DNA of 64,000 nt from Calothrix sp. HK-06 (GTDB lineage: Bacteria; Cyanobacteriota; Cyanobacteriia; Cyanobacteriales; Nostocaceae): the NCBI RefSeq assembly GCF_001904745.1, contig NZ_MRCD01000038.1:1-64000 (forward strand), in the 5' to 3' direction. A model generated the notes under the pieces. It was not told the origin of the DNA. It worked only from the letters and a program-made list of their open reading frames with translations, and made no database searches. Of the stretch, positions 1-64,000 are shown piece after piece. A program made the position numbers and the translations under genes. The stretch's first letter is position 1. The number at the start of each line of letters is the position of its first letter.

Positions 1-122
1 TGAGATGTTCTTTGTATATTATTCCCTAGCAATAGAAGGTACTAACAGTACAATAGTACATAATTAATAATTAGTAAAAATACTGAGATTCCTATTATCA
101 TTATTATAAATAAACAAAATTA

Positions 123-1214
123 TTACTCATTGTCATCAAAACATATTTGGGATGCAATACGGAAATATTCGGAAGCTGCTTTCAAATTATCTTCCCTGTT
201 TCCATAAATACGATGTTGGTAAGCAGTAGCCATATTTCGTAAAGTTTCTGCCCATTCTTTTGGGAAATGCTCGCGTTCATATATTTCCAACGCAACGCGA
301 TAACATTCAATAGAAACTTCTACATTAACTGCTTTATCACCTAAAATACGTTTCAAATATACTTTGCCAAGGTAATTTTGCACTCCTGCCCATTTTAGTG
401 AGTACTTATCACGACGATATGCTCGCAGCGCAACTTCATAACCTGCAATTGCAATTTCTACATTATAAGCAGGTTCTCCACTAGTAAAATCTTGAACCAA
501 ATTACTAAAATTAACTATGTCGGTAACAATACTTAAAGCTATTTCTGGATTTACCGCAATTAATGTAGAAGTTGCCCAATTATCCAGAGCTTGAGCGAAG
601 TTAATGTTGAGCTTATCTAAATTTTCTTCTAGCAGTTTATAAATAACTTGTGTGTCACCGTTACTATTCGCTGTTAACCGCAACACGTCACCAAGAAAAT
701 CTATGTACTCTGAAGGCAATAAATTTGTATTTACATTCGAGTTGGCATTACTGAGTGCTTGAGTTAAAGGAACTGCAATTGTTTGTAAAAATTCAGCTGC
801 CTTTTTTTCGCCAATGTCAATAAACATCGCTGCAACCTGTCGCAGTGTCAGTATAAATTTTGTATCGATTATGTCTTGATGCAAACGCAAAATTTCTGTT
901 TCGGCGCCGCTAGGACAATTGAGCAACTCCTCAATGACTTGCATGTAAACAGAATATGCTTTCTCTTCGTTATCAAATTGCTCTTGTTGTGGCACCAGCA
1001 TTTGTTTCAGTTCCTGCACTAAGTCCAGCAGGAAATTAGCTGTGCCAAAATTACCTCTTTGTGTTGCTCTAGCTGCAACTCGCTCCATCAGTTCAATTAA
1101 ATTAGTGTCAACGAGTTCTAAATGTGCTTGTAGCAAAGCCAACTCTTCTCCATTCGGGCATCGAAGCAATTCGCGAATCAATGTTAAATAAGCCCGGAGA
1201 CGGTTTCTGTCCAT
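123..1214 (-). CDS. TPR-like helical protein related to the N-terminal part of cyanobacterial CHAT proteins
   Basis: A 363-residue, predominantly helical protein with no signal peptide. Two N-terminal units resemble each other: one with ELLRCPNGEE near residue 16 and one with ELLNCPSGAE near residue 95, each followed by an I/LVDTxxI/L segment. This resembles the helical region that precedes TPRs and a CHAT protease domain in large cyanobacterial proteins. TPR-like helices follow (EIAIAGYEVALRAY near residue 255, VEVSIECYRVALEIYERE near 300). No CHAT catalytic His/Cys region is present, and the gene has its own stop, so it looks like a CHAT-less member and not a window-edge truncation. A role as a protein-binding scaffold is inference. 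The upstream gene lies on the other strand. Confidence 0.6.
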   Translation of the reverse strand: MDRNRLRAYLTLIRELLRCPNGEELALLQAHLELVDTNLIELMERVAARATQRGNFGTANFLLDLVQELKQMLVPQQEQFDNEEKAYSVYMQVIEELLNCPSGAETEILRLHQDIIDTKFILTLRQVAAMFIDIGEKKAAEFLQTIAVPLTQALSNANSNVNTNLLPSEYIDFLGDVLRLTANSNGDTQVIYKLLEENLDKLNINFAQALDNWATSTLIAVNPEIALSIVTDIVNFSNLVQDFTSGEPAYNVEIAIAGYEVALRAYRRDKYSLKWAGVQNYLGKVYLKRILGDKAVNVEVSIECYRVALEIYEREHFPKEWAETLRNMATAYQHRIYGNREDNLKAASEYFRIASQICFDDNE

Positions 1215-1415
1215 TCAGGGCCAACCTCAGTGATTAGTTAATTATAGATATAAATTTATACAAGTTATCGTAAAGACTCTAGGACTGGTTGATACATTTA
1301 GGGAAATCACTAATTCCCCATTTTCTCCAAACAGGTTTATATGGGAACATGACCGCTAAGATAAAAGTAATAGTGTTGCGATTTGTTAAGATTTTTGGAG
1401 TTAGGTTTTTTAGCA

Positions 1416-1470
1416 GGGGCGGGTTTACCCATATCCTGGTAAGTAACCGAAAATCTAGGTGAACCCGCCC
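1416..1470. repeat. Inverted repeat of the GGGCGGGTT family in the leader of the ABC operon
   Basis: Arms 1417-1429 and 1458-1470 are complementary over 13 bp with one mismatch (GGGCGGGTTTACC against GGTGAACCCGCCC). The repeat ends 22 bp before the ATG of the ABC ATPase gene, so it may fold in the leader RNA. Similar repeats occur at 2517-2573 and 28872-28924. Confidence 0.6.
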
Positions 1471-1492
1471 GTACTATAGTTAGGAATGTATT

Positions 1493-2512
1493 ATGGCTCC
1501 CGCAGTTTCGATTCAAAATTTAAAAAAGCGCTATGGTGCAACTGAAGCTGTCAAGGATGTGTCCTTTCAGGTGCAGTCAGGAGAAATTTTTGGTTTGCTC
1601 GGTCCTAACGGTGCAGGGAAAACAACTACTTTGCGTATATTGTGTACTTTGACGGCGCCTGATGCTGGTAAAGTAGAAGTCTCTGGCATTTCGGTAGTAG
1701 AGAATCCAAAAGCTGTACGACAACGTTTAGGATATGTCGCGCAAGAAGCAGCACCAGATAAAATATTAACAGGTCGCGAACTGCTACAATTACAAGCTGC
1801 ACTTTACCATTTACCTGCGGCAGTAACAAAGCAGCGAATCGACACAGTACTTACTTTACTAGGTTTACAAGAATACGCCGATAAAAAGACTGGCACGTAT
1901 TCTGGAGGTTTACGTAAGCGTTTAGACTTAGCAGCAGGGTTACTACATGCACCCGATGTATTAGTACTAGACGAACCAACAGTAGGACTCGATATTGAAA
2001 GTCGGTTTGTTGTTTGGGAATTTTTACGAAAGCTGCGCGAAGCTGGGACAACAGTATTAATAACTAGTCATTATTTAGAAGAAATAGACGCATTAGCTGA
2101 CCGAGTGGCAATTATTGACCGTGGTGTGGTCATTGCTCAAGGAACCCCATCTGAGTTAAAGGATAAAATAGGAGGAGATAGAATAACGCTGCGTATTCGT
2201 GAATTCTCTCCACAAGAAGAAGCAGAAAAAGCAAAAAATTTACTCAAATCTTTGCCATTTGTACAAAATGTAATTATAAATAGCGCGCAAGGTAATTCGC
2301 TTAATTTAGTTGTAACTCCGCAAAACGATACCTTAATCACAATTCAACAAGCTTTAAACAACGCTGGTTTACCCATGTTTGGTATTGCCCAGTCACGTCC
2401 TAGTCTAGATGACGTTTACCTTGCTGCAACAGGAAGCACGCTTATGGACGCAGAACTTGCAGCAGCAGCAAACCGTGACCCCAAAGCAGAAAAAAAACAA
2501 AACATGCGCTAG
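1493..2512 (+). CDS. ABC transporter ATP-binding protein, DrrA type
   Basis: ATPase subunit of an ABC-2-type exporter of the daunorubicin-resistance (DrrA) kind, expected at the inner face of the cytoplasmic membrane. Visible motifs: Walker A GPNGAGKTT (about residues 38-46), signature YSGGLRKRLDLAAGLL (about 136-151), Walker B VLVLDEPTVGLD (about 156-167) and the switch histidine in LITSHYLEE. The C-terminal extension after residue 220 is typical of DrrA proteins. The permease gene starts 97 bp downstream on the same strand, so the two should form one transporter. The substrate cannot be read from sequence; cyanobacterial homologues are often annotated as multidrug or lipid exporters without proof. 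Confidence 0.9.
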   Translation: MAPAVSIQNLKKRYGATEAVKDVSFQVQSGEIFGLLGPNGAGKTTTLRILCTLTAPDAGKVEVSGISVVENPKAVRQRLGYVAQEAAPDKILTGRELLQLQAALYHLPAAVTKQRIDTVLTLLGLQEYADKKTGTYSGGLRKRLDLAAGLLHAPDVLVLDEPTVGLDIESRFVVWEFLRKLREAGTTVLITSHYLEEIDALADRVAIIDRGVVIAQGTPSELKDKIGGDRITLRIREFSPQEEAEKAKNLLKSLPFVQNVIINSAQGNSLNLVVTPQNDTLITIQQALNNAGLPMFGIAQSRPSLDDVYLAATGSTLMDAELAAAANRDPKAEKKQNMR

Positions 2513-2516
2513 CAGT

Positions 2517-2573
2517 AAGGGCGGGTTAACCAAAAATTTACACTCAACACTAACATATCCTGAACCTGCCCTT
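2517..2573. repeat. Inverted repeat of the GGGCGGGTT family between ABC genes
   Basis: Arms 2517-2527 (AAGGGCGGGTT) and 2563-2573 (AACCTGCCCTT) pair with one mismatch. The repeat fills the gap between the ATPase and permease genes of one operon, where it could affect mRNA stability or differential expression. That role is inference. Confidence 0.5.
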
Positions 2574-2608
2574 TTCCCAAATCCAAAATCTAAAAACCCA
2601 AAATCCTT

Positions 2609-3508
2609 ATGAGTGGCACCATACTACCTCCAAAATCAGATATTAACTGGCAGCAAGTAGCATCACCGCAACTCTATGCTAGTAAGTCATCGAATAACAC
2701 CTTCGGTGAAATAGTTCAAGAAACTTTAGCGCTAACAAAACGCTTATTCATCCAACTGCAACGGCGCCCCAGTACTTTATTTGCTGGTATCATTCAACCT
2801 GTAATGTGGTTAGTACTATTTGGCGCCTTGTTTCAAAATGCACCAAAAGGTATATTTGGCAGTACAACCAATTACGGTCAATTTCTCGCAGCAGGTATCA
2901 TTGTTTTTACCGCATTTGCAGGGGCGCTCAACGCTGGACTTCCTGTAATGTTTGACCGTGAGTTTGGATTCTTAAATCGACTATTGGTAGCACCTTTAGC
3001 ATCACGGTTTTCAATCGTCTTCGCGTCAGCAATCTTTATTATTAGTCAAAGCTTACTCCAAACTGCCGTTATTATTGGCGCCGCATCATTTTTAGGTGCA
3101 GGTCTACCTAACGCAGCAGGTTTAAGTGCAATAGTACTAATTGTGTTTGCGTTAGCGCTTGGTGTAACTGCTTTAAGCCTAGGTTTAGCATTTACTTTAC
3201 CAGGACATATTGAACTTATCGCCGTCATTTTCGTTAGTACCCTACCGATGTTATTCGCTTCGACTGCATTGGCGCCATTATCATTTATGCCCACATGGTT
3301 ACGAACAATTGCGACCCTTAACCCTCTTAGCTACGCTATTGAACCAATACGCTACCTCTACACTCATAGCAACTGGGGATTAAATAGTGTTGTAATGCAG
3401 TCATTTTGGGGTGATGTTACCTTTGGTGGCGCCTTACTAGTGCTGGTAGGTTTCGCAGTTGTAGCATTATTGAGCATACAACCTCGACTTCGCCGGACAC
3501 TTTCGTAA
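2609..3508 (+). CDS. ABC-2 type transporter permease, DrrB type
   Basis: Integral membrane subunit paired with the ATPase encoded immediately upstream. After a hydrophilic N-terminus of about 50 residues there are about six membrane segments. These include PSTLFAGIIQPVMWLVLFGALF near residue 55, a segment around FLAAGIIVFTAFAGALNAG, one around SAIVLIVFALALGVTALSLG and a last one near residue 280. The sequence PVMFDREFGFLNRLLVAPL matches the conserved ABC-2 membrane region (MxxDxExGxLxxLLxxP). The length of 299 residues is normal for the family. ATG at 2609 is used because it keeps the normal family N-terminus. No substrate can be assigned. Confidence 0.88.
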   Translation: MSGTILPPKSDINWQQVASPQLYASKSSNNTFGEIVQETLALTKRLFIQLQRRPSTLFAGIIQPVMWLVLFGALFQNAPKGIFGSTTNYGQFLAAGIIVFTAFAGALNAGLPVMFDREFGFLNRLLVAPLASRFSIVFASAIFIISQSLLQTAVIIGAASFLGAGLPNAAGLSAIVLIVFALALGVTALSLGLAFTLPGHIELIAVIFVSTLPMLFASTALAPLSFMPTWLRTIATLNPLSYAIEPIRYLYTHSNWGLNSVVMQSFWGDVTFGGALLVLVGFAVVALLSIQPRLRRTLS

Positions 3509-3547
3509 AATAGAAACAATCACTATCTATAGTACTTGAGGGGCCCA

Positions 3548-3937
3548 ATGAAAATCCGATTATTAGCACTTTTGTCTTTAGCTGGACTAGGTTTAGCAAG
3601 CGTAGCACAACCAAGCAACGCACAAACTGCACAAAATGTACCTGCGAGCCAAAGCACCAATCCACAAAACTATGACACACCTAGTGACCCATTCTCACGA
3701 GGTGTTGAGCAAAGTCCGTTCAATATGTTCCAATTAATTCATAACGCCCAGCTTGGTATTAACAATTACGACCCAGAATTTTTCAAACAACAAAGCCAAG
3801 AAATAGATGATGCTGCTACAGCATTCCGCAAGCGGCAGCAGCTAATGATGCGAACAGGAACACAAAATACAGGAAATATAGTCCAACCACTACCACAACA
3901 AGGTTCACAAGTAATTAAGCTTGAACCCAGCAAATAG
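3548..3937 (+). CDS. Small secreted protein with signal peptide, function unknown
   Basis: A 129-residue protein with a clear Sec signal peptide: MKIRLLALLSLAGLGLASVA, then a likely cleavage site after SNAQ. The mature part is rich in Gln, Asn and Pro and contains PSDPFSRGVEQSPFNMFQLIHNAQLG; the C-terminal half is polar. The start at 3548 is preferred over an in-frame TTG 12 bp upstream because GAGGGG lies at a good ribosome-binding distance before this ATG. It follows the ABC permease by 39 bp and may be cotranscribed. Similar short exported proteins are common in cyanobacteria, but I do not recognise a named family. Confidence 0.7.
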   Translation: MKIRLLALLSLAGLGLASVAQPSNAQTAQNVPASQSTNPQNYDTPSDPFSRGVEQSPFNMFQLIHNAQLGINNYDPEFFKQQSQEIDDAATAFRKRQQLMMRTGTQNTGNIVQPLPQQGSQVIKLEPSK

Positions 3938-4038
3938 GAATTGTGTATTTTTAAACAATTGTCTTGTGGGGTGGGCATCCTTGCCTGCCCTACTTTTTTA
4001 AAATTATTTTAATATCATTTATCCTATATAAATTCCCA

Positions 4039-4740
4039 ATGATTGCAGAAAACGATGAAAGCTATGAGTTGCATATTCTAAAAAACGTTATAAATATTTA
4101 CCTCGACCGCGTACTGCCCAAGACAGAAGAAGCTTTAGACTCATTTGCCTCTAAACGTGATGATACTGTATGGGAAATAGCCACAGGTATTTATAACCAG
4201 AGTGGATATAAAGTTAAATTTTCTATAGTACGTGATATTATCGATTCTCGGATTGAAGCATCAAAGATACAACTATTAGCAGACAAGAACGCTGCCTACG
4301 AGCGTTTACAGTTAGAACAAGCAGAGGAAGGTCAACGAGTAGCAGAAGCAAACAAGCTTTACCAAAATCGTTTAATTCAGTTAGCTAAGAAATTAAACGA
4401 GTCAGGTAGACATAAAATAATGCCCAACCTCTTCCTTAAAGTTCAAGACATAGTAAGTGATAAGTTAAACGTTGAGCAAGATACGATAGCCTTAAATAGC
4501 CACATTATATCTGATTTGGGTGCTGATGGGCTTGATATAACAGAGCTTGCGATGGCATTAGAAGAAGAGTTTGACATTGAAATACCGGAGGATATATTAA
4601 GCTCGATTAGTATACCTACGTGGATATGGTCTCAGCCGTCTAGCAGTTCTTTTGATAATTCAGAACCAACAGCTTGTACTGTTGGAGAAATTGTAGATTT
4701 TATCCACAAACACTTACTCGAAAGGGACACCAATAAATAA
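4039..4740 (+). CDS. Acyl-carrier-protein-like domain protein lacking the phosphopantetheine serine
   Basis: A 233-residue protein in two parts. Residues 1-125 are helical and charged, probably partly coiled-coil (around residues 70-110). Residues about 132-215 align well with acyl carrier proteins: LKVQDIVSDKLNV, then DLGADGLDITELAMALEEEF, then DIEIPEDIL. In ACPs the motif is DSL, with Ser carrying the phosphopantetheine; here codon 4528-4530 is GGG, so residue 164 is Gly. Unless another residue is modified, the protein cannot carry an acyl thioester. ATG 4039 is preferred over an upstream in-frame TTG near 3964, because that extension translates a dispersed repeat. No fatty-acid or polyketide genes are adjacent. 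Function unknown. Confidence 0.75.
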   Translation: MIAENDESYELHILKNVINIYLDRVLPKTEEALDSFASKRDDTVWEIATGIYNQSGYKVKFSIVRDIIDSRIEASKIQLLADKNAAYERLQLEQAEEGQRVAEANKLYQNRLIQLAKKLNESGRHKIMPNLFLKVQDIVSDKLNVEQDTIALNSHIISDLGADGLDITELAMALEEEFDIEIPEDILSSISIPTWIWSQPSSSSFDNSEPTACTVGEIVDFIHKHLLERDTNK

Positions 4741-4828
4741 ATTGGAGAAGCTTAATATAATAAGTTTTTATTTGTTGGCGCCTTTAACAAAGCTAGTATG
4801 TACACACTTGGCTATAATTACCCTTTGT

Positions 4829-5005
4829 GTTCTTTGTGTCCTTTGTGGTTCATAAAAAAGAAACCACAAAGGTAACAAAGGCAACTGGAGCATAAGTCCC
4901 AGTAAGTGTACTATAAACGGGTTAAAACTTCACTTTTAAAGCAAGCGAAATCTTTAAGATGCTACCCTGCGGGAAAACTCCGTTTACGTTCCTCAGCATG
5001 ACAGT
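4829..5005. repeat. Intergenic dispersed repeats (CTTTGTG arms and CAGCATGACA element)
   Basis: The gap between the ACP-like gene and prxQ has no gene. At 4829-4881 there is a CTTTGTG-rich stretch followed by its complement AACCACAAAGG, giving a potential hairpin. At about 4953-5003 lies an AAGATGCT...CAGCATGACA element resembling the inverted repeat at 63418-63516. Both look like interspersed short repeats of cyanobacterial type. Confidence 0.45.
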
Positions 5006-5033
5006 TTCGCAGTATATCAGCGGGATTTTTTAA

Positions 5034-5471
5034 TTAAAGACCTAATGCTTGTAAAACATCACTAGCGTGAGTGGAAGTGTTAACGCTGGCATCAACGTGA
5101 GTAATTTTGCCGTTACCATCGATTACATAGGTAACACGCTTTGCATATCCACCACCATCAACGTCATAAGCGCTGATAAGTGAATGGTCGGTGTCTGCCA
5201 ACAGAGGAAAATTCAAATTGTACTTTTGAGTAAATGCTTGGTGAGAACTTTCATCATCAGCACTAACTCCCAATACAACTACATCTTTATTTTGATAATT
5301 TGGTTGAGCATCGCGGAAACTGCAAGCTTGTTTGGTGCAACCTGGAGTATCGTCTTTGGGATAGAAATATAAGACTACAGTTTTACCTTTGAAATCTGAC
5401 AGCGAGACAGTATTACCGTTGGTGTCTTTGGCGGTAAATGCAGGTGCATCTGTACCAACTGCTAAAGCCAT
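5034..5471 (-). CDS. Peroxiredoxin Q (bacterioferritin-comigratory protein type)
   Basis: Thiol peroxidase reducing H2O2 and organic hydroperoxides, most likely with thioredoxin as donor. The 145-residue protein has the PrxQ layout: FYPKDDTPGCTKQACSFRD places the peroxidatic Cys45 and resolving Cys50 in the C-x4-C spacing of atypical 2-Cys PrxQ. Downstream, GVSADD and FPLLADTD are conserved in the family. There is no signal peptide, so it should be cytoplasmic. It is transcribed alone. A second, exported homologue lies at 29439-29996 and lacks the resolving Cys at this position. Confidence 0.92.
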   Translation of the reverse strand: MALAVGTDAPAFTAKDTNGNTVSLSDFKGKTVVLYFYPKDDTPGCTKQACSFRDAQPNYQNKDVVVLGVSADDESSHQAFTQKYNLNFPLLADTDHSLISAYDVDGGGYAKRVTYVIDGNGKITHVDASVNTSTHASDVLQALGL

Positions 5472-5560
5472 AATTAAACTACCCTGTTTGCTGATTGTTT
5501 ATGCATTTAAAATTTTACAATAATTTACAATGTTTTAAGATGAGGCCTTACAACGGATTT

Positions 5561-5635
5561 AACGGATGTAACGGATGAGTTATTGATTACAAACAAAGTC
5601 CGGTTATCTAAAATAACCTATCCGTTACATCCGTT
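5561..5635. repeat. Perfect 16-bp inverted repeat with nested hairpin
   Basis: Arms 5561-5576 (AACGGATGTAACGGAT) and 5620-5635 (ATCCGTTACATCCGTT) are perfectly complementary. Inside the loop, GGTTAT at 5602-5607 and ATAACC at 5613-5618 form a second stem. The element lies between the divergent prxQ and 5667 genes, 32 bp before the latter's start. A related TGTAACGGATT occurs at 34103-34113. Confidence 0.65.
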
Positions 5636-5666
5636 CATCATCCGTTGCCAATAACTCCTAATTTTT

Positions 5667-6071
5667 ATGTCTGTTATTGATTATCAAAACCAAAAACCTT
5701 TCGTTTATACAGGTCAGACTCTTGAACGCGCGCTGCGGTCGCTGGTTTGTTCGCCTTTTATGTTTTCTTTGTTTGATGCGATGCGTCAAGACAGGGTGGC
5801 AATCAGTGAAATTACTGGTACTAAGGGTGTTGAGAATAGTTATACTAAACGCCCTTTGTCGGAATTAATTACGGATAATGAACTTGTTTGGCTAATTCAA
5901 GTTGGTGTATTACGACGCGAAGTTGATGGTCAGGGTATAACCGATAGTTTTCGTTTGACTCCTTTAGGGCGCCAATTAGTTGAGCAATCTTTGACTAAAC
6001 CCTGGCGCCAACCAACGTTTCTGGATATTTTTTATGAAGTTGTGACTCGCTACTTGAGATTACCCTTTTAG
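5667..6071 (+). CDS. Conserved cyanobacterial protein, possibly Npun_F0494 family
   Basis: A 134-residue soluble protein without signal peptide. The middle reads like a winged-helix fold: helices around MFSLFDAMRQDRVAISEITG and TKRPLSELITDNELVWLIQ, then GVLRREVDGQGITDSFRLT with the two strands of a possible wing and PLGRQLVEQ closing. I associate this sequence with the cyanobacterial family named after Npun_F0494, from memory. DNA binding is a structural guess; no partner is evident, since cobQ starts 180 bp downstream and may be a separate unit. Confidence 0.6.
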   Translation: MSVIDYQNQKPFVYTGQTLERALRSLVCSPFMFSLFDAMRQDRVAISEITGTKGVENSYTKRPLSELITDNELVWLIQVGVLRREVDGQGITDSFRLTPLGRQLVEQSLTKPWRQPTFLDIFYEVVTRYLRLPF

Positions 6072-6251
6072 AATTAAGGGGGAATGAGTTATTAAAGAAG
6101 GATACACGGGAATAATAAGTACGGAAACGTCAATCCCATTCATCAAATCTTTAATATAGTTGAGTTGTCACTCGTTATCTAATTGTGACGATTGGCATCT
6201 CACATGGTTTGCGACCACTCCCTCTACTAAAAACTAATAGATTATTAACTT

Positions 6252-7727: not shown

Positions 7728-7743
7728 TTAAGTAAACAAACCC

Positions 7744-24009: not shown

Positions 24010-24176
24010 TACTCTTCCTCACTCCAAACATCATACTCAACCGCATTATCGCTTATATAGTGCGGTTGGTGCCTATAGAAAAAGTAAGGGGTTGCTACTT
24101 TAAGGGAAAGAGACGATGTGAAAAGGCGCCTTTTACATTGGTAATATGATTCAGGGAATGAGATTTACCACCAAAA

Positions 24177-27926: not shown

Positions 27927-28870
27927 CAGATTTTTTTGCACCTCTAATTGGACAACAACAGGCAGTAGAGTTACTTAAACAAGCTGTAGCCAAAAATAGA
28001 ATTGCGAGCGCGTACTTATTTGCAGGCGCCGATGGAGTTGGGCGAAGTTTAGCGGCGCGTTGCTTTGTTGAATTATTATTTTCACACTCTATTAATAATA
28101 TATCGAGTGACTCGACGACTAAACGTTTACAGCAAGGTAATCATCCTGATGTACTCTGGGTGCAACCAACATACCAGCACCAAGGACAGCGCTATACTCC
28201 ACAAGAAGCAGCAGAAAAAAAAATTAAACGCAAGGCACCACCAGTTATTCGGCTAGAACAAGTCCGTGAAATTACAACATTTCTAAGTCGTCCCCCAATG
28301 CTGGCGCCCAGAAGTGCTGTAGTAATAGAACAAGCCGAAACAATGGCAGAATCTGCCGCAAATGCTTTACTCAAAACTCTTGAAGAACCAGGAAAAGCAA
28401 CATTAATTTTAATGGCACCTAACTTAGATGCCATACTACCAACTATTGTGTCGCGATGCCAACGCATACCATTTCATCGCTTAGACACAGCAGGTATGAC
28501 GCAAGTACTAATAAAAACAGGACATCAAGAAATATTGCAGCATCAAGCAGTCATGAATATAGCTGCTGGAAGTCCCGGAGAAGCAATAGAATCATACCAA
28601 CAAATGCAAGCTATAAATTCCGACTTATTAAAATCTGTTACTAAGGCACCAGCAAACCTTCGTCACTGTTTAGAATTAGCCAAACAAATCGACAAAGAAT
28701 TAGAAACCGAAGCTCAATTATGGTTGGTTGACTATTTGCAACAAATGTACTGGCAACAGCGACATCAACCAAATATTATTAAGCTACTCGAACAAACTAG
28801 AAAAAATCTACTTTGCTACGCTCAACCGCGTTTAGTTTGGGAATGTACATTTTTGAAGATGCTGGGGTAA
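27923..28870 (+). CDS. holB: DNA polymerase III delta prime subunit
   Basis: Clamp-loader subunit of DNA polymerase III. The 315-residue AAA+-like protein begins MTDFFAPLIGQQQAVELLKQ and has LFAGADGVGRSLAARCF in the P-loop position, which is degenerate (GVGRS, no GKT) as is usual for delta prime. Further motifs are RLEQVREITTFLSRPP, VVIEQAETMAESAANALLKT, LEEPGKATLILMA and IVSRCQRIPF (the SRC motif). The start at 27923 overlaps the tmk stop. A GGGCGGGTT inverted repeat follows, between this gene and a convergent one. Confidence 0.92.
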   Translation: MTDFFAPLIGQQQAVELLKQAVAKNRIASAYLFAGADGVGRSLAARCFVELLFSHSINNISSDSTTKRLQQGNHPDVLWVQPTYQHQGQRYTPQEAAEKKIKRKAPPVIRLEQVREITTFLSRPPMLAPRSAVVIEQAETMAESAANALLKTLEEPGKATLILMAPNLDAILPTIVSRCQRIPFHRLDTAGMTQVLIKTGHQEILQHQAVMNIAAGSPGEAIESYQQMQAINSDLLKSVTKAPANLRHCLELAKQIDKELETEAQLWLVDYLQQMYWQQRHQPNIIKLLEQTRKNLLCYAQPRLVWECTFLKMLG

Positions 28871-41609: not shown

Positions 41610-42770
41610 ATGACACTTATTGAATTGGTTGCTACATTTTTACCAGTTTTGATTTGGATAGGATTACTGATTTTTCGAGGTGCCTTCTGGCAAGTGTCAG
41701 AAGTCATAGAGGATATGAGTATAGGAGATTGTCACCCTACAGTTTGTGCTGTAATTCCTGCGCGTAATGAAGCTGATTTATTAGGGAAAACCTTAAAATC
41801 TATACTTTGTCAAGATTACTCAAGCACATTTAATATTGTTTTAGTTGATGACAACAGCAGCGATGGTACAGCATCCGTAGCATTGAAAACTGCTGAAAAT
41901 CTTAACAAAATTCAACAACTACATATAATTAACGCTTTGCCACTGGCACCGGGTTGGTCTGGTAAACTCTGGGCAGTTGAACAGGGTATTCGTAAAGCTA
42001 GTACATTTAACCCAGATTACTATCTTTTGGCAGATGCAGATATTGAGCATGATTCCAGCAATCTCAACAGACTTGTTACAAAAGCAGTTCAACAAAACTT
42101 AGACCTAGCGTCTGTAATGGTGCGGTTACGCTGCGAAAGCTTTTGGGAAAAATTATTAATACCAGCGTTTGTATTCTTCTTTCAAAAACTTTATCCTTTC
42201 CAGTGGGTAAACGACCCTAATAAATCAACTGCTGCTGCTGCTGGTGGTTGTATATTAATTCGTCGTGATGCACTAGAACGCATCGGTGGAATTCAAAGTG
42301 TCAAACAAGCTCTAATTGATGATTGTGCATTAGCAGGTGCCGTGAAATCAACTCAAAATCATCCTATTTGGTTAGGCTTAAGTTCCTTAACGCACAGCTT
42401 ACGGCAGTATAATTCCTTAGATACAATTTGGGATATGGTGGCGAGAACTGCTTATACTCAACTTAATTACTCCCCAATATTACTAATTGGGACTTTGTTG
42501 GGAATGACTTTAGTGTATTTAATATCACCAATAGCTTTAGTATTTGGTTTCGTAACGAGTAACTGGTTAATTGTAGGATTTGGTTTACTAGGGTGGTTAC
42601 TAATGGCTCTAGCCTACTACCCAACAATTCGCTTTTACCAATGCTTACCTATTTACGCTTTTTGCTTACCCCTAATAGCATTTTTATACACTCTAATGAC
42701 TATAGATTCAGCTTTGCGGCATTGGCAAGGACGGGGAGGTGCCTGGAAAGGTAGAGTTTATGAAATATGA
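41610..42770 (+). CDS. hpnB: Hopene-associated glycosyltransferase HpnB
   Basis: Membrane-bound GT2-family glycosyltransferase of about 386 residues, linked by genome context to hopanoid modification. N-terminal membrane helix LVATFLPVLIWIGLLIFRGA, then the GT-A core: VCAVIPARNEADLLGKTLKS, VLVDDNSSDGTASVAL with the metal-binding acids, PGWSGKLWAVEQGI, YYLLADADIEHD (the DxD motif), and ALIDDCALAGAVK. Several C-terminal helices close it. The 3' end overlaps the convergent hpnG gene by 13 bp. ATG 41610 gives a normal N-terminus; a GTG 18 bp upstream is an alternative. Confidence 0.88.
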   Translation: MTLIELVATFLPVLIWIGLLIFRGAFWQVSEVIEDMSIGDCHPTVCAVIPARNEADLLGKTLKSILCQDYSSTFNIVLVDDNSSDGTASVALKTAENLNKIQQLHIINALPLAPGWSGKLWAVEQGIRKASTFNPDYYLLADADIEHDSSNLNRLVTKAVQQNLDLASVMVRLRCESFWEKLLIPAFVFFFQKLYPFQWVNDPNKSTAAAAGGCILIRRDALERIGGIQSVKQALIDDCALAGAVKSTQNHPIWLGLSSLTHSLRQYNSLDTIWDMVARTAYTQLNYSPILLIGTLLGMTLVYLISPIALVFGFVTSNWLIVGFGLLGWLLMALAYYPTIRFYQCLPIYAFCLPLIAFLYTLMTIDSALRHWQGRGGAWKGRVYEI

Positions 42771-47495: not shown

Positions 47496-48512
47496 ATGTC
47501 AATTAACTTAATGCAAGCGATAGAAATCGGTAAATATCTAGTCGCACAACGTATCAAAGGACGCAAACGTTTTCCACTTGTGTTGATGCTCGAACCGCTG
47601 TTTAGGTGTAACTTAGCGTGTTCTGGATGCGGAAAAATCCAACATCCTGCTGAAATACTAAAGCAAAATTTAACACCAGAACAATGCTTTGCAGCTGTAG
47701 AAGAATGCGGCGCCCCTGTAGTCTCAATACCAGGTGGCGAACCTTTATTACATCCGCAAATTGATGAAATCGTGCGTGGACTAGTCGCTCGCAAGAAATT
47801 TATTTATTTATGTACAAACGGAATATTACTGGAAAAAAGCCTAGATAAATTTACACCTTCACCATATCTAACATTTTCCGTTCACCTCGATGGAATGCGC
47901 GACTTACACGATAAATGTGTTGACCGTAAAGGCGTATTTGATACAGCGGTGAAAGCAATTCGTGCAGCAAAAGCGAGAGGTTTTCAAGTAGCAACGAATA
48001 CAACAATATTTGATGGTACTGAACCAGCAGAAATGCAAGAATTCTTTGATTTTGTCACATCCTTGGGTGTAGATGGAATGACAATTTCCCCAGGATATGG
48101 TTATGAATGGGCACCCGACCAAGACCATTTTCTCAAACGCGAACAAACACGCGCATTATTCCGTAAAATATTGGCGCCTTGGAAGGCAGGTCAAAAGAAC
48201 TGGAGTTTTAATAACAACCCACTGTTCTTAGATTTTCTCACAGGTGACAAAGACTATGAATGTACACCTTGGGGAATGCCATGTTACAGCGTACTAGGAT
48301 GGCAAAAACCTTGTTACCTACTCAACGAAGGACATTACAAAACCTTCAAAGAACTCCTTGATGAAACCGACTGGAACCAATACGGTCGTGCGAGCGGCAA
48401 CCCCAAATGCGCCGACTGCATGATGCACTGCGGTTACGAGCCAACAGCAGCTTTGGACTCAATGCAACCCACCAACATCGCGCGGTCAATGAAAGTTCTA
48501 TGGGGTGGCTAA
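47496..48512 (+). CDS. hpnH: Adenosyl-hopene transferase HpnH (radical SAM)
   Basis: Radical SAM enzyme that adds the adenosyl group to hopene, the first step of C35 hopanoid side-chain formation. The [4Fe-4S] motif is [16 protein letters not shown] (C-x3-C-x2-C, about residues 38-45), followed by [15 protein letters not shown] with the SAM-binding GGE. Further features are [35 protein letters not shown] and a Cys-rich C-terminus ([16 protein letters not shown]). The length of 338 is normal. AAGGAG-like GGGGAG precedes the ATG. The gene is in the predicted RND-hpnA-hpnH operon. Confidence 0.94.
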
Positions 48513-55866: not shown

Positions 55867-55869
55867 AAT

Positions 55870-57659: not shown

Positions 57660-57693
57660 AAGATTCTCGACTTCTTTAAAGTCGGGAATCTTA
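57660..57693 (-). terminator. Hairpin after the DUF1838 gene
   Basis: AAGATTCTCGACTT and AAGTCGGGAATCTT form a stem with one mismatch. It lies between the DUF1838 gene's stop and kdpA. It is a plausible terminator for the DUF1838 gene, insulating the kdp promoter. Confidence 0.55.
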
Positions 57694-57726
57694 ACACCCG
57701 CAACGCAATGTTAAAAAACATTTATA

Positions 57727-58566
57727 CTATATCAAACACGGTTCTTCAACAATTGGCGCCGGAAGTGGAAATTCTTCACCGCGTTGACATGCATCAAATT
57801 GCTCTTCAAAACGAGTCCAACTGGTAGCAATTGAGCGTTGTAACCTGCCAACGGGTGCTTCCTTGTATAAAGGCATACGCTCCTCAATTAGGGTTTTGAG
57901 CCGTGGATCCAACGCATTATAACTATCCAGTTTTACACCTGTATAGTTTAAAACAAGAAAGCCAGGTTTACCCTTCATTTTCATCCAAGGTTCCCAAGGT
58001 CCCATGCGGTAATAAGACAGTGAGACAGTACCAGAGTCTTCAGGTTTTAAAAAGTTCTCAGTTAGCAACCTTGTTGGGAAAAGATATTTGTAAGAATCTG
58101 CTGATTGAATATATTTCTCTGGAGAATAATCAGCAAATTTCGGATTTGTTGCTAAAGGGTTGGGTTTTTTCCAGTTAAAATCTAGAGAAATCGCACAAAC
58201 TTCGGGAGCAATATCAGCTTGAATTTGAGGAGGAATAGCCCATTCTTGGTAATCGTATGAACGGTGTAAGACGTTCCTAGTCTCCCCGCTCCAAGGATTT
58301 TGCCAATTTTTTAGCACTGAGTCCGTTTGAGGGTCTAGATAAAGCGTGATTTTACGGCTAACTAACGTCCAACACCCGGTTGCTTTATCTTGAACACATC
58401 GTGATATATCAACACCAAGGAAGTTAAATAAGTGAACAGGTTGCTCATCATCGAGAGGATGGGCATACATGGCACCCGTTGCTTCTAAGTAATGAGTTTG
58501 ACTATCATTGCTACAGCGAACTTTCACAAATTGCTCATCCGTAATAATTGACTTTGATAAGCTCAT
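57727..58566 (-). CDS. DUF1838 family protein
   Basis: A 279-residue soluble protein with no signal peptide. Recognisable features of the DUF1838 family are ATGAMYAHPLDDEQPVHLFN (about residues 30-49), GVDISRCVQ, LVSRKITLYLDPQTDSVLKN, WQNPWSGETRNVLH and the tail PLYKEAPVGRLQRSIATSWT. The biochemical function is not known. It lies 26 bp downstream of priA on the same strand, so the two may share a transcript, though a functional link is not obvious. Confidence 0.78.
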   Translation of the reverse strand: MSLSKSIITDEQFVKVRCSNDSQTHYLEATGAMYAHPLDDEQPVHLFNFLGVDISRCVQDKATGCWTLVSRKITLYLDPQTDSVLKNWQNPWSGETRNVLHRSYDYQEWAIPPQIQADIAPEVCAISLDFNWKKPNPLATNPKFADYSPEKYIQSADSYKYLFPTRLLTENFLKPEDSGTVSLSYYRMGPWEPWMKMKGKPGFLVLNYTGVKLDSYNALDPRLKTLIEERMPLYKEAPVGRLQRSIATSWTRFEEQFDACQRGEEFPLPAPIVEEPCLI

Positions 58567-58592
58567 ATTTATACCTACGATAGGGCTGGCAG

Positions 58593-61286
58593 CTAGATAA
58601 TATTCAATGGGTCAACATCGATTGTTAAACTTACTGAGTCCGGACAGATTTGGCGAATTTCATCCCAGTTTGGTAACTGTGGTAGAGCATCGGGTGCAAA
58701 TTTTACCATAATTTGCCAACGGTACCGATTTGCTACACGCATAATACTAGCAGGCGCCGGACCAAGTATCTCATAACTGTCCCCACCACGTAAAAATGCT
58801 GCGATAATTTCGGAAGCATTCGCTACTTGTACCGCATCCACACTACTCAAACGTAACAAAATTAACCGTCCAAACGGAGGATAGTTAAGTGCTTGCCGTT
58901 GCTCTAATTCAATAGCAGTAAAGGCTCTATAATCATGCCCACGTACTGCTTCAATAACCGGATGTTCTGGTGTATACGTTTGTAAAATTACACGTCCAGG
59001 TTCTTCGCCGCGTCCTGCACGTCCTGCTACCTGTGTTAAAGTTTGAAACGCGCGTTCGCTAGCACGATAATCAGATAAATGTAACAGTCCATCAGCAGCG
59101 ACAACTCCTACTAAAGTAACCTGTGGCAAGTCTAAACCTTTAGTAAGCATTTGTGTGCCTAACAAAATATCCGCTTCACCATTTATAAATTGTGTCAACA
59201 AATTACGATGGGCGCCTTTATTACTTGTAGTATCACTATCAAACCGAATTACACGTAGCTCTGGAAACTCTTTTGCTAGTTCCTGTGCAACTTTTTGTGT
59301 ACCACTACCAAAAAATTTAAACTTAGGTGAATCACATTGTGGACAGCTTCGCTCATGTGGGGTTACATAATTACAATAATGACACCTTAATAACTGCGGC
59401 GCCCCATACTCTGTTTGATGGTACGACAACGATACATCACAATGCGGACACTCCATTACATACCCACAACTACGACACGAAACAAAAGTACTATGCCCAC
59501 GTCGGTGGATGAATAAAATACCTTGTTGTTTTTTTTCTTGAAGTTGTATTAATGCGTCGGACAGTGTTCTGCTGAACATTGATTTATTGCCCTGCTGTAA
59601 CTCAGAGCGCATATCAATAATTTCTACAGGTGGAAGTGGACGTGAGTTCACACGTTCGGGCAAAGATAAATAAAGAGTTTTTTGCTGTTGCGAAGCTATT
59701 AGTGTTTCTAACGCAGGAGTTGCAGAACCTAAAACCAAGACACAATTTTCAAGTTCTGCACGCCAAGTAGCAACTGTACGCGCATGGTATGTAGGAATGG
59801 GAGAATCTTGTTTAAATGATGAATCGTGTTCTTCATCGAGGATAATTAAACCCAAGTTAGATAAAGGGGCAAATATAGCACTACGAGTACCAATTACTAC
59901 TTGTGGTTCTTTGTTCAACATTTGGCGCCATGCATCGTAACGTTCACCATCACTGAGTCCACTATGATAAACGCTAACTTTGCTACCAAAACGAGCGCGA
60001 AATCTATCAGTAAGTTGAGGTGTTAGCCCGATTTCAGGAACTAATACAAGAGCAGATTTTCCATTTTCGAGCAAAGGTGCTATTGCTTGCAAGTAAACTT
60101 CGGTTTTTCCTGAACCTGTTACTCCGTGTAGCAAAATAGTTCCTGTTTGGCTTTCTCTAATTTTTGCCAGCGCTTGAGTTTGGTCGTGTGTGAGGGTTTT
60201 TGCTGTGTCTGTTCCTGTTAAGCTACCTGCATTTTCATCGCTTTCGCTTCGTAATAGTTCCCTTTCTTCAATAACTATATAGCTTTTATTAGATAAAGAT
60301 TTTAATGTCGAAGTAGCGGCGCCGGTTATTTGTAATAATTCAGCCAACCATATTTCACCACCACGTCGTCGTAACACTTCCAAAACTTCGCGCTGACGAG
60401 TGGTAATATCACCCGTAAAGGAATAAGCAGTTAAAATTACAGCTTTTCGTAATTTAGGACGAACGGTTCTTGCTTGTTCTATGTATTTTTCGACTAAACC
60501 TAACTTGGCTAGTTCGCGCACAGCACGAGTTGCTCCCTGAACTTGTCGTTGCAGGAAAACTAAGCTGTAATCTCCTTCTGCTTGGTCTTGCAGAATTCTT
60601 AAAATTTTATTGAATGTGACATTATGTACTTGCTTCGTTGAGTTCTGGAATATCAATAAGCAAAGAATCGATATTAAATATTCACTGTCAATTAAGTTTT
60701 GTAAATAAAATAAGAGTAATACGATACAAGATTCTAAAGAAAAACCCTTTTTTTTAGCTTGATTAAATTTCTGAAATAGTGGCTGAGATTGTTCTTCGAC
60801 GGAATTTGTTAAAGTTGAAACTGCGGCGCCTGCAATGGTTAAACGGACGCGACGCTGTGACTTCGCGAGCAGTTTAGGTGGGAGTGCAGCGCGAATCACC
60901 TGAATTAAGGGTGTGTAATAATATTGTGATACCCGCTCCATCAGCTTCCAATAACTTTCTTGGAAGAAATGCTTATGAACAACATCTTCAACTTGCTTGA
61001 TTTTGTTCGTTTCTATACCTGATGGAGGGTTATTAATTACACGTATCGCGATGCCACCTACAACACAGGCGCCGAATGGCACGCTCAAAATATCACCGGG
61101 TTTAATATCCAACTCGGTTGGTATGAAATATGGGTAAAGTTTGTGTCCGTCCTTCGTTGCAAATTCAACCAACTCCGGTGGAATATCTACCAAAACTTCT
61201 ACCAAACGTTGCGTAACGGTATGGTATCTTCCCCCGACTTCGGCAACCTTCAATATGGTTGGGCTAGCAATGCTTGTGGTGTACAT
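58593..61286 (-). CDS. priA: Primosomal replication-restart helicase PriA
   Basis: Superfamily 2 DNA helicase that reloads the replisome at stalled forks. The 897-residue protein has the N-terminal DNA-binding domain (ELDIKPGDILSVPFGACVVG), Walker A LLHGVTGSGKTEVYLQAI, DEAH-type LGLIILDEEHDSSFKQ, the zinc cysteines CRSCGYVMECPHC and RCHYCNYVTPHERSCPQC, and motif VI GRAGRGEEPGRVILQT. It is longer than usual: residues about 172-225 form a hydrophobic, AT-rich insertion inside the winged-helix-flanking region (DNA about 60611-60773). The insertion keeps the frame. Confidence 0.95.
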   Translation of the reverse strand: MYTTSIASPTILKVAEVGGRYHTVTQRLVEVLVDIPPELVEFATKDGHKLYPYFIPTELDIKPGDILSVPFGACVVGGIAIRVINNPPSGIETNKIKQVEDVVHKHFFQESYWKLMERVSQYYYTPLIQVIRAALPPKLLAKSQRRVRLTIAGAAVSTLTNSVEEQSQPLFQKFNQAKKKGFSLESCIVLLLFYLQNLIDSEYLISILCLLIFQNSTKQVHNVTFNKILRILQDQAEGDYSLVFLQRQVQGATRAVRELAKLGLVEKYIEQARTVRPKLRKAVILTAYSFTGDITTRQREVLEVLRRRGGEIWLAELLQITGAATSTLKSLSNKSYIVIEERELLRSESDENAGSLTGTDTAKTLTHDQTQALAKIRESQTGTILLHGVTGSGKTEVYLQAIAPLLENGKSALVLVPEIGLTPQLTDRFRARFGSKVSVYHSGLSDGERYDAWRQMLNKEPQVVIGTRSAIFAPLSNLGLIILDEEHDSSFKQDSPIPTYHARTVATWRAELENCVLVLGSATPALETLIASQQQKTLYLSLPERVNSRPLPPVEIIDMRSELQQGNKSMFSRTLSDALIQLQEKKQQGILFIHRRGHSTFVSCRSCGYVMECPHCDVSLSYHQTEYGAPQLLRCHYCNYVTPHERSCPQCDSPKFKFFGSGTQKVAQELAKEFPELRVIRFDSDTTSNKGAHRNLLTQFINGEADILLGTQMLTKGLDLPQVTLVGVVAADGLLHLSDYRASERAFQTLTQVAGRAGRGEEPGRVILQTYTPEHPVIEAVRGHDYRAFTAIELEQRQALNYPPFGRLILLRLSSVDAVQVANASEIIAAFLRGGDSYEILGPAPASIMRVANRYRWQIMVKFAPDALPQLPNWDEIRQICPDSVSLTIDVDPLNII
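60611..60773 (-). other. AT-rich in-frame insertion within priA
   Basis: The segment encodes residues of unusual composition (CIVLLLFYLQNLI, SEYLISILCLLIFQN) between the normal N-terminal part and LRILQDQAEGDYS, where PriA proteins resume. It is visibly richer in A and T than the flanks. No target-site duplication was resolved by eye. Confidence 0.5.
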
Positions 61287-62284
61287 ATATATTATCTATT
61301 TATCAATGAATTATAATCCCAAATCTCATATCCTTCTAGATGATTTACCCTTGCCCCTCTCCCCTTTACCCTTTTCGCTTTTTTGACCTGACCGTTAACC
61401 ATTAACTAAATCATTAAAAATTGTAGTTATCAATACTTTCGCTTGTCATATTACTTGATAAGTTTCCTATACAAGTCAATTGCTTAAGCTCTCCGTTATT
61501 AATTGCATCGCCGCCATTACTTATTCATACTTATTTAGACGCAGATAAAATAACACGATAATGTTCGTAATTGCTTAGATTATTTTTTCTCCATATACTA
61601 AATAAGTAATAGCATCTTTTCCCTCCATCGGTAGATATTCAACCTTATTACGATATGAGAAGCTTTTATCTAGTAACTCTGAATGCCAAAGTTTAAACTG
61701 TCACATGGCAGCAAGTTAAAAATCATCAGAGAAGCACAGGATACAAAACTGTGTATCTTTGGAGCCACAAAGCATAAACTCTTAGTTATTCAAATAATTA
61801 TAGAAAAATTTAAGCATTGAGGAGTGGCAAAGGTATTTTTGTGTTAAGTGTATGCAATTTAGATTGAGGAGGATTTAACGTATTTGATGAATTTGAAGCA
61901 AAATTGAAACAGAAACTACAAATAAATTTGGATTACAGCACAACGTTTACAACCTGCAAGCGTTGATTAAAAAAAAAATTAACAGTTCGCGTTCAAATTA
62001 CCCAAAGCGTAAGCTCTGAATAGAACTTGACCTAAGTCAAAACAACTTACGTAGTAAATTTCACTAGTTATAGTGTAAAATCTAAAACTAGTGCTTAAAA
62101 GGACGCTAATAATTAACTTTTAGCTAAAGCATCTGTTTGAGAAAATAAACCAGGCGCACTTACTACTACTAAGTTTTTTAAGCGAGATAGTGATACCTGG
62201 ATACTCCAATCTACGTATTGCATAAATGCAGTAAAGCGCAAAAGTTATGTACCAATCGGAAGCAACCATTCCTCACATAAACCT
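61287..62284. other. Long gene-free leader region of a sigma factor gene
   Basis: About 1 kb between priA (minus) and the sigma factor gene (plus). It is AT-rich, with no coding frame supported by length and codon use, and no tRNA, riboswitch or strong hairpin recognised. It probably contains the divergent promoters and perhaps a long 5' leader for the sigma factor; an unannotated small RNA is possible but unproven. Confidence 0.45.
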
Positions 62285-63406
62285 ATGAATATTGCAGAAT
62301 TGGAAACAATCGAGATTATCGAAAGTGCTACTGATATTGAAGAACCAACGCTCGATATTTTGGAACAAGTAGCTGACGAAGCTTTGATTGCCGACAATGA
62401 TGAACGTGACGGTGACCAGATGGGAGCAGCTCGTCCTTCTGGATATAACAAAACCGAACATGATGATGCAGTCGGAGCTTTCTTTAAAGAAATGGCACGT
62501 TACCCGCTACTTAAACCCGATGAAGAGGTCGAGTTAGCAAGACGAGTCAGATTTTTAGAAGAAGTTCGAGAAATACAAGCATCATTACAAGAGAAGTCAG
62601 AGCAACCTGTGACTAAGGCACAAGTTGCAGTGCAATTAGATTTGACAGAAAGACAATTAGAAAGTCGGTTGTATCAAGGTAGAGTCGCTAAACGCAAAAT
62701 GATTCGCTCGAATTTGCGTTTGGTAGTATCAATAGCAAAACGATATTTAAATCGTGGAGTTCCTTTTCTGGATTTGATACAGGAAGGAGCAATGGGTTTG
62801 AACCGCGCGACAGAAAAGTTTGACCCAGATAAAGGATATAAATTTTCAACTTACGCATATTGGTGGATACGTCAAGCTATAACTCGTGCTATAGCAAATG
62901 ACGCGCGCACAATTCGTTTGCCAATTCACATTGTCGAAAAGCTGAACAAGCTGAAAAAAGCGCAACGCGAACTCAAACAGCAGCTTGGACGTAACCCCAA
63001 CGAAGTAGAACTTGCTGCCATATTAGAAATACCTCCATCTCAGCTGCGTCAGCTTCAACAATTACGTCGTCAAGCGCTTTCACTCAACCATCGTGTCGGT
63101 AAAGAAGAAGATACCGAACTGATGGATTTATTAGAAGATGAAGATAATCAGTCTCCTGAAGCAAAAATGAACGAAAGCATGATGCGTCAGGAGATATGGG
63201 AAGTTTTGGCTGATGTATTGACACCGCGTGAAAAAGATGTAATTTCATTGCGGTATGGTTTAACAACGAGTGAGCCATGTACTTTAGAAGAAGTTGGCAA
63301 TATGTTCAATCTTTCTCGCGAACGTGTTCGTCAAATTCAAAGTAAAGCAATGCGAAAGCTCCGGCGCCCACATATCGCTAAACGCTTGAAAGGTTGGCTG
63401 ATATAG
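62285..63406 (+). CDS. Group 2 sigma-70 family RNA polymerase sigma factor
   Basis: An alternative, non-essential-type sigma factor of 373 residues. Region 1.2 is DDAVGAFFKEMARYPLLKPD, region 2 RSNLRLVVSIAKRYLNRGVP and EGAMGLNRATEKFDPDKGYK (promoter melting), then FSTYAYWWIRQAITRAI for -10 recognition. Region 3 is IRLPIHIVEKLNKLKKAQRE and region 4 LTPREKDVISLRYGL with LEEVGNMFNLSRERVRQIQS (helix-turn-helix for -35). The acidic N-terminus (about 60 residues) is variable. Which cyanobacterial group 2 factor (SigB to SigE) it is cannot be settled by eye. Confidence 0.92.
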   Translation: MNIAELETIEIIESATDIEEPTLDILEQVADEALIADNDERDGDQMGAARPSGYNKTEHDDAVGAFFKEMARYPLLKPDEEVELARRVRFLEEVREIQASLQEKSEQPVTKAQVAVQLDLTERQLESRLYQGRVAKRKMIRSNLRLVVSIAKRYLNRGVPFLDLIQEGAMGLNRATEKFDPDKGYKFSTYAYWWIRQAITRAIANDARTIRLPIHIVEKLNKLKKAQRELKQQLGRNPNEVELAAILEIPPSQLRQLQQLRRQALSLNHRVGKEEDTELMDLLEDEDNQSPEAKMNESMMRQEIWEVLADVLTPREKDVISLRYGLTTSEPCTLEEVGNMFNLSRERVRQIQSKAMRKLRRPHIAKRLKGWLI

Positions 63407-63417
63407 AGGTATATAAT

Positions 63418-63516
63418 ATGTCATGCTGAACGGAGTGAAGCATCTAAAAAGCTTTTAAACAGAAATTTAAAAAGCAAGAATACAATTAAAGATTCTTCGC
63501 TGCGCTCAGAATGACA
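63418..63516. repeat. Dispersed inverted repeat (GTCATGCTGA ... TCAGAATGAC)
   Basis: The stretch opens GTCATGCTGAACGGAGTGAA and closes AAGATTCTTCGCTGCGCTCA followed by GAATGACAT; the outer parts are approximately complementary. A related element lies near 4953-5003. It fills the gap between the sigma factor gene and the acetyltransferase gene. Confidence 0.6.
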
Positions 63517-63537
63517 TAATTATCAAATTACAATCCT

Positions 63538-64000
63538 ATGCCCAGCCATATAACTATACGTTCTGCACAACCAGAAGATTGCGAAGCAATTTTTTCTCTT
63601 ATCCAAGCTTTAGCGGAATACGAAAAACTATCACACGCTGTAACCGGAGATGCTCTTGCACTAAAAGAGCATCTTTTTGGTATGCACAAGTTTGCTGAAG
63701 CCATTTTAGCGGAATGTGATGGCAAAGCTGTCGGCTATGCTTTATTTCTTTATAACTATTCAACATTTCTTACTAAACCTGGTATTTATCTTGAAGACCT
63801 TTTTGTTCTTCCCGAATATCGGCGCCAGGGTATTGGTAAATCACTTATAAGTAAACTCGCACAAATCGCTTTAGAACGTAATTATGGGCGCCTCGAATGG
63901 AGTGTTCTAGATTGGAACGAACCTGCGATTGAATTTTACCGTCGCATCGGCGCCGAAATTTTGGGCGAATGGCGAATTTGTCGAGTTACTGGTACAGCTA
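63538..64000 (+). CDS. GNAT family N-acetyltransferase, cut by the window end
   Basis: Acetyl-CoA-dependent N-acetyltransferase; the gene continues past the window, with 154 codons visible and no stop. It reads MPSHITIRSAQPEDCEAIFS at the start, a large VGYALFLYNYSTFLTKPGIY segment, and the acetyl-CoA loop DLFVLPEYRRQGIGKSLISK (R/Q-x-x-G-x-G/A at RRQGIG). The late segment LEWSVLDWNEPAIEFYRRIG with N and Y is typical of diamine/spermidine-type GNATs. The acceptor is not known; polyamine or peptide N-termini are guesses. Confidence 0.85.
   Translation, partial: MPSHITIRSAQPEDCEAIFSLIQALAEYEKLSHAVTGDALALKEHLFGMHKFAEAILAECDGKAVGYALFLYNYSTFLTKPGIYLEDLFVLPEYRRQGIGKSLISKLAQIALERNYGRLEWSVLDWNEPAIEFYRRIGAEILGEWRICRVTGTA

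Follow-up and report, generated by a model that had tools for sequence, protein, structure and literature searches.

GGCGCC in place of HIP1 across a Calothrix genus: an alternate highly iterated palindrome with a most likely repair-linked origin

The 64,000 bases of Calothrix sp. HK-06 analysed here (contig NZ_MRCD01000038.1, positions 1 to 64,000; this whole stretch is called the window) raise the question of why one short palindrome, GGCGCC, occurs in them so often, and by what process its copies are written and kept. The palindrome of most cyanobacteria is HIP1 (GCGATCGC). An earlier note, made from the letters of the window, had proposed that this lineage uses a different highly iterated palindrome (HIP), perhaps with a matching methyltransferase or a role in repair or chromosome organisation. 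The first proposal is borne out: GGCGCC is an alternate HIP that replaces HIP1 in this genus. A repair-linked origin is the most likely one, as the turnover data favour it over the other readings.

The window contains 99 copies of GGCGCC, in line with the nearly 100 previously claimed for coding and non-coding DNA. Zero-order composition predicts 3.7, which agrees with the earlier expectation of about four and gives an observed/expected ratio (O/E) of 26.4, and an order-2 Markov model with the sites masked predicts 2.6. An order-4 model built from the window's 5-mers predicts 49.9, with GGCGCC still the top-scoring 6-mer (z 6.9); this expectation was set aside because the GGCGCC sites themselves feed into the 5-mer counts. 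Genes are taken throughout as open reading frames (ORFs), not annotated genes. Inside 49 non-overlapping ORFs of at least 120 aa lie 85 of the 99 sites, and 14 lie outside; by frame offset 0, 1 and 2, the in-ORF sites number 49, 14 and 22, and 49 of the 85 read Gly-Ala. Site spacing is close to random, with a coefficient of variation of 0.85 against 0.82-1.21 for random placement. The extent of the set is as follows.

1..64000 (first bases 903 to 63949), no strand: 99 GGCGCC palindromes, in ORFs and outside them
903..908, no strand: first GGCGCC copy in the window
63949..63954, no strand: last GGCGCC copy in the window

HIP1 is absent from the window (0 copies), as the earlier note had stated. 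That note had named two outcomes that would speak against its proposal, a genome-wide count near expectation and abundant HIP1 elsewhere, and the genome shows the opposite of both. Its 9.99 Mb hold 15,449 copies of GGCGCC (1,546/Mb), 6 of the reversed control CCGCGG, which has the same letters, and 88 of HIP1. Two shorter palindromes are scarce in the window: GATC is nearly absent (12 vs 228 expected), and GGCC is found 16 times vs 97 expected, with a similar scarcity in sampled sequence of all seven genomes of the genus. Several features of the HIP class are present, namely a density of about 1,000-2,000/Mb, a GC-rich palindrome, occurrence in coding and non-coding DNA, and low HIP1. GGCGCC shares with HIP1 its nature as a GC-rich palindrome and differs from it in sequence; HIP1 has been linked to orphan methyltransferases (PMC4390886).

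All seven genomes analysed from the Calothrix genus carry GGCGCC in 7,475-20,380 copies (1,150-1,711/Mb), with 1-8 copies of the CCGCGG control, and in all seven GATC is depleted (O/E 0.05-0.26; 64-160 kb sampled per genome). Two same-family controls, G058 and G111, have GATC O/E of 0.82 and 0.45, are rich in HIP1 and contain no GGCGCC in 180 kb each. A survey of 388 genomes drawn from the order included 69 same-family genomes outside the genus, none above 108 GGCGCC/Mb. Only five of the 388 exceed 500/Mb: the window's own genome (G000) and G152, both of this genus, together with G059, G116 and G176. In G116, 2,365 copies stand against 1,104 reversed controls. G176 has 532/Mb with a control count of 13, and the 36 kb sampled from it are rich in HIP1 and have a GGCGCC O/E of 2.2. 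G059 has a GGCGCC O/E of 6.2 in 112 kb, with GGCGCT and CGGCGC enriched too. A further candidate for a second GGCGCC switch, G136 (872 copies vs control 9), was rejected, as 132 kb of its sequence show O/E of 1.3 for GGCGCC and 7.7 for RCCGGY.

The hexamer itself is not new as a HIP. GGCGCC is among the described alternates, a point the earlier note had left open: Calothrix PCC 7103 and D253 are reported to have it as their alternate HIP (Elhai 2015, PMC4390886), and the same source adds for PCC 7103 that HIP1 has been lost, that GATC is depleted and that two GRCGYC methyltransferases are present. The present genus resembles these strains in hexamer, genus name, near-absent HIP1, GATC depletion and, by inference, GRCGYC methyltransferases. 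However, the published case consists of one genome and a 19-kb sample, whereas the new elements here are the genus-wide occurrence (seven of seven genomes), the turnover rates and the nuclease-free methyltransferase neighbourhood. No literature after 2015 on the GGCGCC palindrome in cyanobacteria was found in a search whose coverage excluded most subscription journals.

The turnover of the sites can be read in part from their one-off variants. Among the nine classes that differ from GGCGCC by one base, only GGTGCC/GGCACC, the product of a central CpG C-to-T change, is clearly enriched: 22 vs 10.9, 52 vs 31.6 and 32 vs 23.3 expected in three sequence sets, or 106 vs 65.8 pooled. GCCGCC/GGCGGC is slightly above expectation (33 vs 25.5 pooled), and the other seven classes are at or below it, with GACGCC/GGCGTC the lowest or nearly so (0.15-0.39). 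In the controls G058 and G111, GGTGCC is depleted (0.23 and 0.13), perhaps as part of a wider site that they avoid; because of this, they do not provide a clean GGTGCC baseline.

The window was also aligned to its counterparts in six relatives at 81-95% identity, among them G150 (Calothrix sp. NIES-4105) and G151 (Calothrix sp. C42_A2020_038). It has 22 GGTGCC/GGCACC loci, and at 17 of the 20 with at least four aligned relatives some relative has GGCGCC. The same measure over 250 TG contexts gives 9.7% pooled, and 53% in the next highest context. The following loci in the alignment illustrate the pattern.

48110..48115, no strand: decayed copy, GGCACC here, GGCGCC in six of six relatives
42738..42743, no strand: decayed copy, GGTGCC in this genome and G150, the other five relatives having GGCGCC
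24068..24073, no strand: variable copy, GGTGCC here and in three relatives, GGCGCC in three relatives
28234..28239, no strand: variable copy, GGCACC here and in two relatives, GGCGCC in four relatives
991..996, no strand: both C-to-T products, with GGCACC here and in two further genomes; two genomes have GGTGCC, one has GGCGCC and one GGCATC

When states were polarised by agreement of G150 and G151 as outgroups, one or more of the five ingroup genomes had the central C-to-T change at 15 of 44 ancestral sites, compared with 86 of 419 other CpGs. GGTGCC/GGCACC was ancestral at two loci, and the ingroup has GGCGCC at both. In a wider set, no locus is GGTGCC/GGCACC throughout, vs 6,161 fixed TG/CA at other positions. 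Polymorphism is concentrated in the same change, with central C-to-T at 30 of 59 loci, the other two transitions at 1 of 30 and 5 of 34, and each transversion at 0-1. Ortholog comparison, through the rate fits that follow, reveals a T-to-C bias at the putatively methylated base.

A two-state maximum-likelihood fit gives a loss rate of 7.15 (confidence interval, CI, 4.3-87) and a return rate of 50.6 (CI 27-617) per mean substitution. The corresponding rates are 2.26 and 1.34 at 795 further CpG loci whose flanks are unchanged, and 2.97 and 2.46 at 40 other NGCGCN loci. Compared with other CpGs, loss of GGCGCC is therefore faster by a factor of about 3, and its return by a factor of about 38. These fits cover loci with no states other than GGCGCC, GGTGCC and GGCACC and at least five aligned genomes (at least four when G149 and G153 are left out); the other one-off classes offer too few changes for rate fits. 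Amino-acid constraint is rejected by a synonymous-only fit (GGC|GCC to GGT|GCC, 25 loci), in which the return CI is 36.9-6,693 vs 1.41 for 711 other third positions. A sequencing artefact is likewise rejected: T states are seen in all seven genomes, and the fit holds without G149 and G153, which their contig numbers alone had made suspect as long-read assemblies (return 37.9, CI 17-762; with four genomes 34.3, CI 8.5-690).

Conservation of the individual positions adds to this picture. The silent third base of Ala GCC is kept in 28 of 35 cases in sites vs 27 of 101 elsewhere in G151, the most distant relative, in 41 of 46 vs 69 of 128 in G150, and at 0.93-0.96 vs 0.71-0.78 in the four closest relatives. 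The outer site positions are better kept than the flanks, most clearly at positions 2, 5 and 6. The two central positions do no better than the flanks. For the Gly GGC codon, sites have a clear advantage over GGC elsewhere in the two distant relatives only (0.75 vs 0.57 and 0.72 vs 0.42), as would be expected if decay is fast. Fast return and a conserved silent last base, taken together, show that the DNA hexamer is itself the target of some process.

Replicons differ in the amount of the motif. A 50-kb stretch of plasmid 2 of NIES-4105 carries 171 GGCGCC and no HIP1, more than twice the GGCGCC density of the sampled chromosome. On plasmid 1, one 50-kb stretch has 31 GGCGCC interspersed with 9 HIP1, and another has 63 and none. 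This pattern fits a process acting on resident DNA. Both plasmids also carry paralogues of the genus-wide methyltransferase family described next (L046, L058). No phage records resembling a region of this genus were found.

The C5 methyltransferases of the seven genus genomes form clusters, three of which have at least seven members. Two clusters are represented in all seven genomes; proteins of the first are about 319 aa long, those of the second (the L012 family) 370 aa. The family of about 319 aa matches PF00145 and has up to three paralogues per genome, intact or broken, with one subfamily (79-99% identical) present in each of the seven. In the window's own genome, the contig ends C29:1-323 and C207:1-317 carry the two ends of a copy of this genus-wide methyltransferase, 95% identical to that of G148; the C29 part diverges directly after GGPP of the catalytic motif, and contig C60 holds another copy of the subfamily, which is open.

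Homologues of this family are found at E <=1e-45 in 34 of 148 order genomes. Their recurrent neighbour matches RE_HindVP (E <=2.4e-146 in five of five tested), and a HindVP-like stretch, sometimes partial, accompanies them at 22 of the 30 order loci and at 56 of 80 loci from the genome collection. By tblastn, such a stretch has no match at any fetched methyltransferase locus of this genus, the rest of these genomes being unsearched. GRCGYC is the common target of BsaHI, HgiDI and HgiGI; HindVP is their putative relative, its nuclease being itself reported inactive, and M.BsaHI methylates the central C of GRCGYC (2008 paper, PMC2413257). By RIMS-seq, GRCGYC is a methylated motif of Haemophilus influenzae Rd (PMC8565308). 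The genus-wide family is thus most likely a GRCGYC C5 methyltransferase without a nuclease nearby, a placement given by the neighbours of its homologues and not by alignment to M.BsaHI. It resembles the BsaHI/HgiDI/HindVP group as a C5 methyltransferase with homologues beside RE_HindVP, but here the fetched loci lack the HindVP-like stretch and the site is amplified rather than avoided. The matching methyltransferase of the earlier note is in this way found in part: a candidate family is encoded in all seven genomes, but its probable specificity, GRCGYC, is wider than GGCGCC. Avoidance of GRCGYC was dropped as a sign of the enzyme, as G058 and G111 lack GRCGYC in 180 kb each and have no family match.

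GGCGCC density is higher in the 8 genomes in which no HindVP neighbour was seen (24-2,497/Mb) than in the 22 with one, where the median is 2.3 and the maximum 35/Mb (p 1e-4 by Mann-Whitney test, or 6e-4 without G000 and G059, uncorrected for relatedness). The order loci compared extend about 1.5 kb past the gene, and 30 of the 34 methyltransferase-positive order genomes are covered (G126, G049, G098 and G138 have no fetched locus). All three genomes with HIP1 below 50/Mb belong to the group without the neighbour; G000 and G059 exceed 500 GGCGCC/Mb, and G136 amplifies RCCGGY instead. Both cut-offs, 50/Mb for HIP1 and 500/Mb for GGCGCC, were set once the counts had been seen.

The explanation given slightly better than even chances is that, after the loss of HIP1 under GATC avoidance, an orphan methyltransferase together with methylation-linked repair writes and keeps GGCGCC. 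The orphan enzyme, of the BsaHI/HindVP kind, probably methylates the central C (GG-m5C-GCC). Sites would decay mainly by deamination of this C to GGTGCC/GGCACC; the rapid loss of the central C agrees with deamination of a base methylated where M.BsaHI methylates its target. By ortholog comparison of the window region, decayed sites revert to GGCGCC far faster than other TG/CA pairs revert to CG, and the outer positions of the hexamer are kept as well. The engine would most likely be methylation-directed mismatch repair, in which a strand that has kept the methylated site guides the correction of the mutated opposite strand. Repair directed by G-methyl-C was proposed by Elhai in 2015, and this proposal needs methylation of the internal C (PMC4390886). 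As the proposal is understood here, such repair would correct in-site mutations, because a strand that has mutated is no longer open to methylation. GGCGCC may have taken over once genus-wide GATC avoidance had removed HIP1 and the restriction partner had been lost, the order of events being a reconstruction.

Several observations weigh against this explanation. GACGTC and GACGCC, which are also GRCGYC sites, are not enriched, so that more than the enzyme is needed to define the site, and the 370-aa C5 methyltransferase is likewise present in seven of seven genomes. In G136, where the gene is present and HIP1 is gone, the amplified motif is RCCGGY, while G176, G008 and G037 have GGCGCC far above CCGCGG with HIP1 intact. 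The enriched motif of G059 is centred on CGGCGC with GGCGCT and is not a clean GGCGCC, which makes this genome a partial parallel only. Among 24 genome-collection loci without a HindVP neighbour, several of them shortened by contig ends, the two loci from this Calothrix genus hold 23 and 21 GGCGCC and five Poribacteria loci have neither HIP1 nor GGCGCC, but the 17 other cyanobacterial loci have 0-1 GGCGCC and 2-15 HIP1 each; nuclease absence alone was rejected as the cause on the strength of these 17. The Gly GGC codon in the four closest relatives is kept at 0.84-0.92 in sites vs 0.81-0.85 elsewhere. The rate fit is based on 59 loci (the window region and one methyltransferase locus), an author-set topology and a distance tree. 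Finally, what looks like fast turnover could be produced by very weak selection if polymorphism within species is high.

The alternative that survives best, although judged unlikely, is direct selection for a function of GGCGCC as a recombination, uptake, segregation or nucleoid signal, with methylation just making the copies mutable. Outer positions kept above their flanks, a silent Ala third base kept far above its level elsewhere and a density alike across the seven species would all be accounted for. However, under a fixed-difference model a roughly 38-fold return needs strong selection, which by inference would make losses almost impossible, whereas losses are about 3 times faster. Fixed-difference selection is disfavoured because it should not raise both loss and return. 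Near-random spacing and the plasmid 2 stretch, whose 171 copies in 50 kb exceed chromosome density, also count against it.

Somewhat less probable still is very-short-patch repair, in which a Vsr-type nuclease recognises the T:G mismatch in GGTGCC, restores C and drives GGCGCC up. The return from GGTGCC/GGCACC, about 38 times the generic rate, is what such a nuclease would produce, and Dcm/Vsr of E. coli and ScmA/VsrA of Caulobacter (PMC12907096) share with the present case a solitary C5 methyltransferase and T-to-C correction at the motif. In the seven genomes, however, PF03852 has no match at E <=0.001 (the control search was positive in 5 of 14 references; DUF559 Vsr-like proteins were unsearched), and the decay product GGTGCC is enriched rather than depleted. 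A Vsr nuclease alone would be insufficient because the last base, which offers no T:G target, is kept as well.

A doubtful reading, ranked lower again, is that the 370-aa L012 enzyme or an m4C enzyme matters and the BsaHI-type genes are bystanders. The L012 family is indeed genus-wide, and G000 has six PF01555 (N6/N4) matches. Against this, BsaHI-type enzymes methylate the very base that bears the decay signature, and the enzymes of G059, itself a partial parallel only, include no close L012 homologue (best 28%). Ordinary composition or codon bias has practically no chance of being the cause: 49 of 85 in-ORF sites read Gly-Ala, but CCGCGG of the same composition occurs 6 times vs 15,449, Ala GCC outside sites is far less conserved, and sites also lie outside ORFs.

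What maintains HIPs was still called a mystery in 2015 (PMC4390886). Methylation-linked repair, the favoured explanation, leads to a broader claim, put forward tentatively and with less than even confidence: HIPs may be written by repair and not kept by selection, the methylated hexamer being a mutation-repair equilibrium on chromosome and plasmids alike, restored by a methylation-guided mismatch-repair activity new to cyanobacteria. A genus in which HIP1 is swapped for GGCGCC, and which has close relatives, allows mutation-repair to be tested against selection, with the further assets of a candidate enzyme family whose methylated base has been determined (for M.BsaHI) and replicons that differ in motif amount. 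The 2015 account is amended in two respects. It calls alternate HIPs sporadic and not found in clades (PMC4390886), whereas here an alternate HIP does persist through a clade (seven of seven genomes). It also states that the methylation site was known for no GRCGYC enzyme (PMC4390886), although that of M.BsaHI had been determined in 2008.

Some genomes of the order show other changes of palindrome. In G136, the RCCGGY enrichment is accompanied by HIP1 loss (81 copies in 6.6 Mb), a combination that resembles the published case of Oscillatoria PCC 10802, and its BsaHI-type methyltransferase homologue directly adjoins a second C5 methyltransferase. In G007, which belongs to the genus of G059, HIP1 is nearly gone (134 in 3.7 Mb) and GGCC is 3.1x over-represented in 120 kb, possibly as a further alternate palindrome; G036 and G078 of the same genus retain HIP1. 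In G018, HIP1 is low (206 in 4.6 Mb), and its core CGATCG is 5.9x over-represented in the sampled 56 kb.

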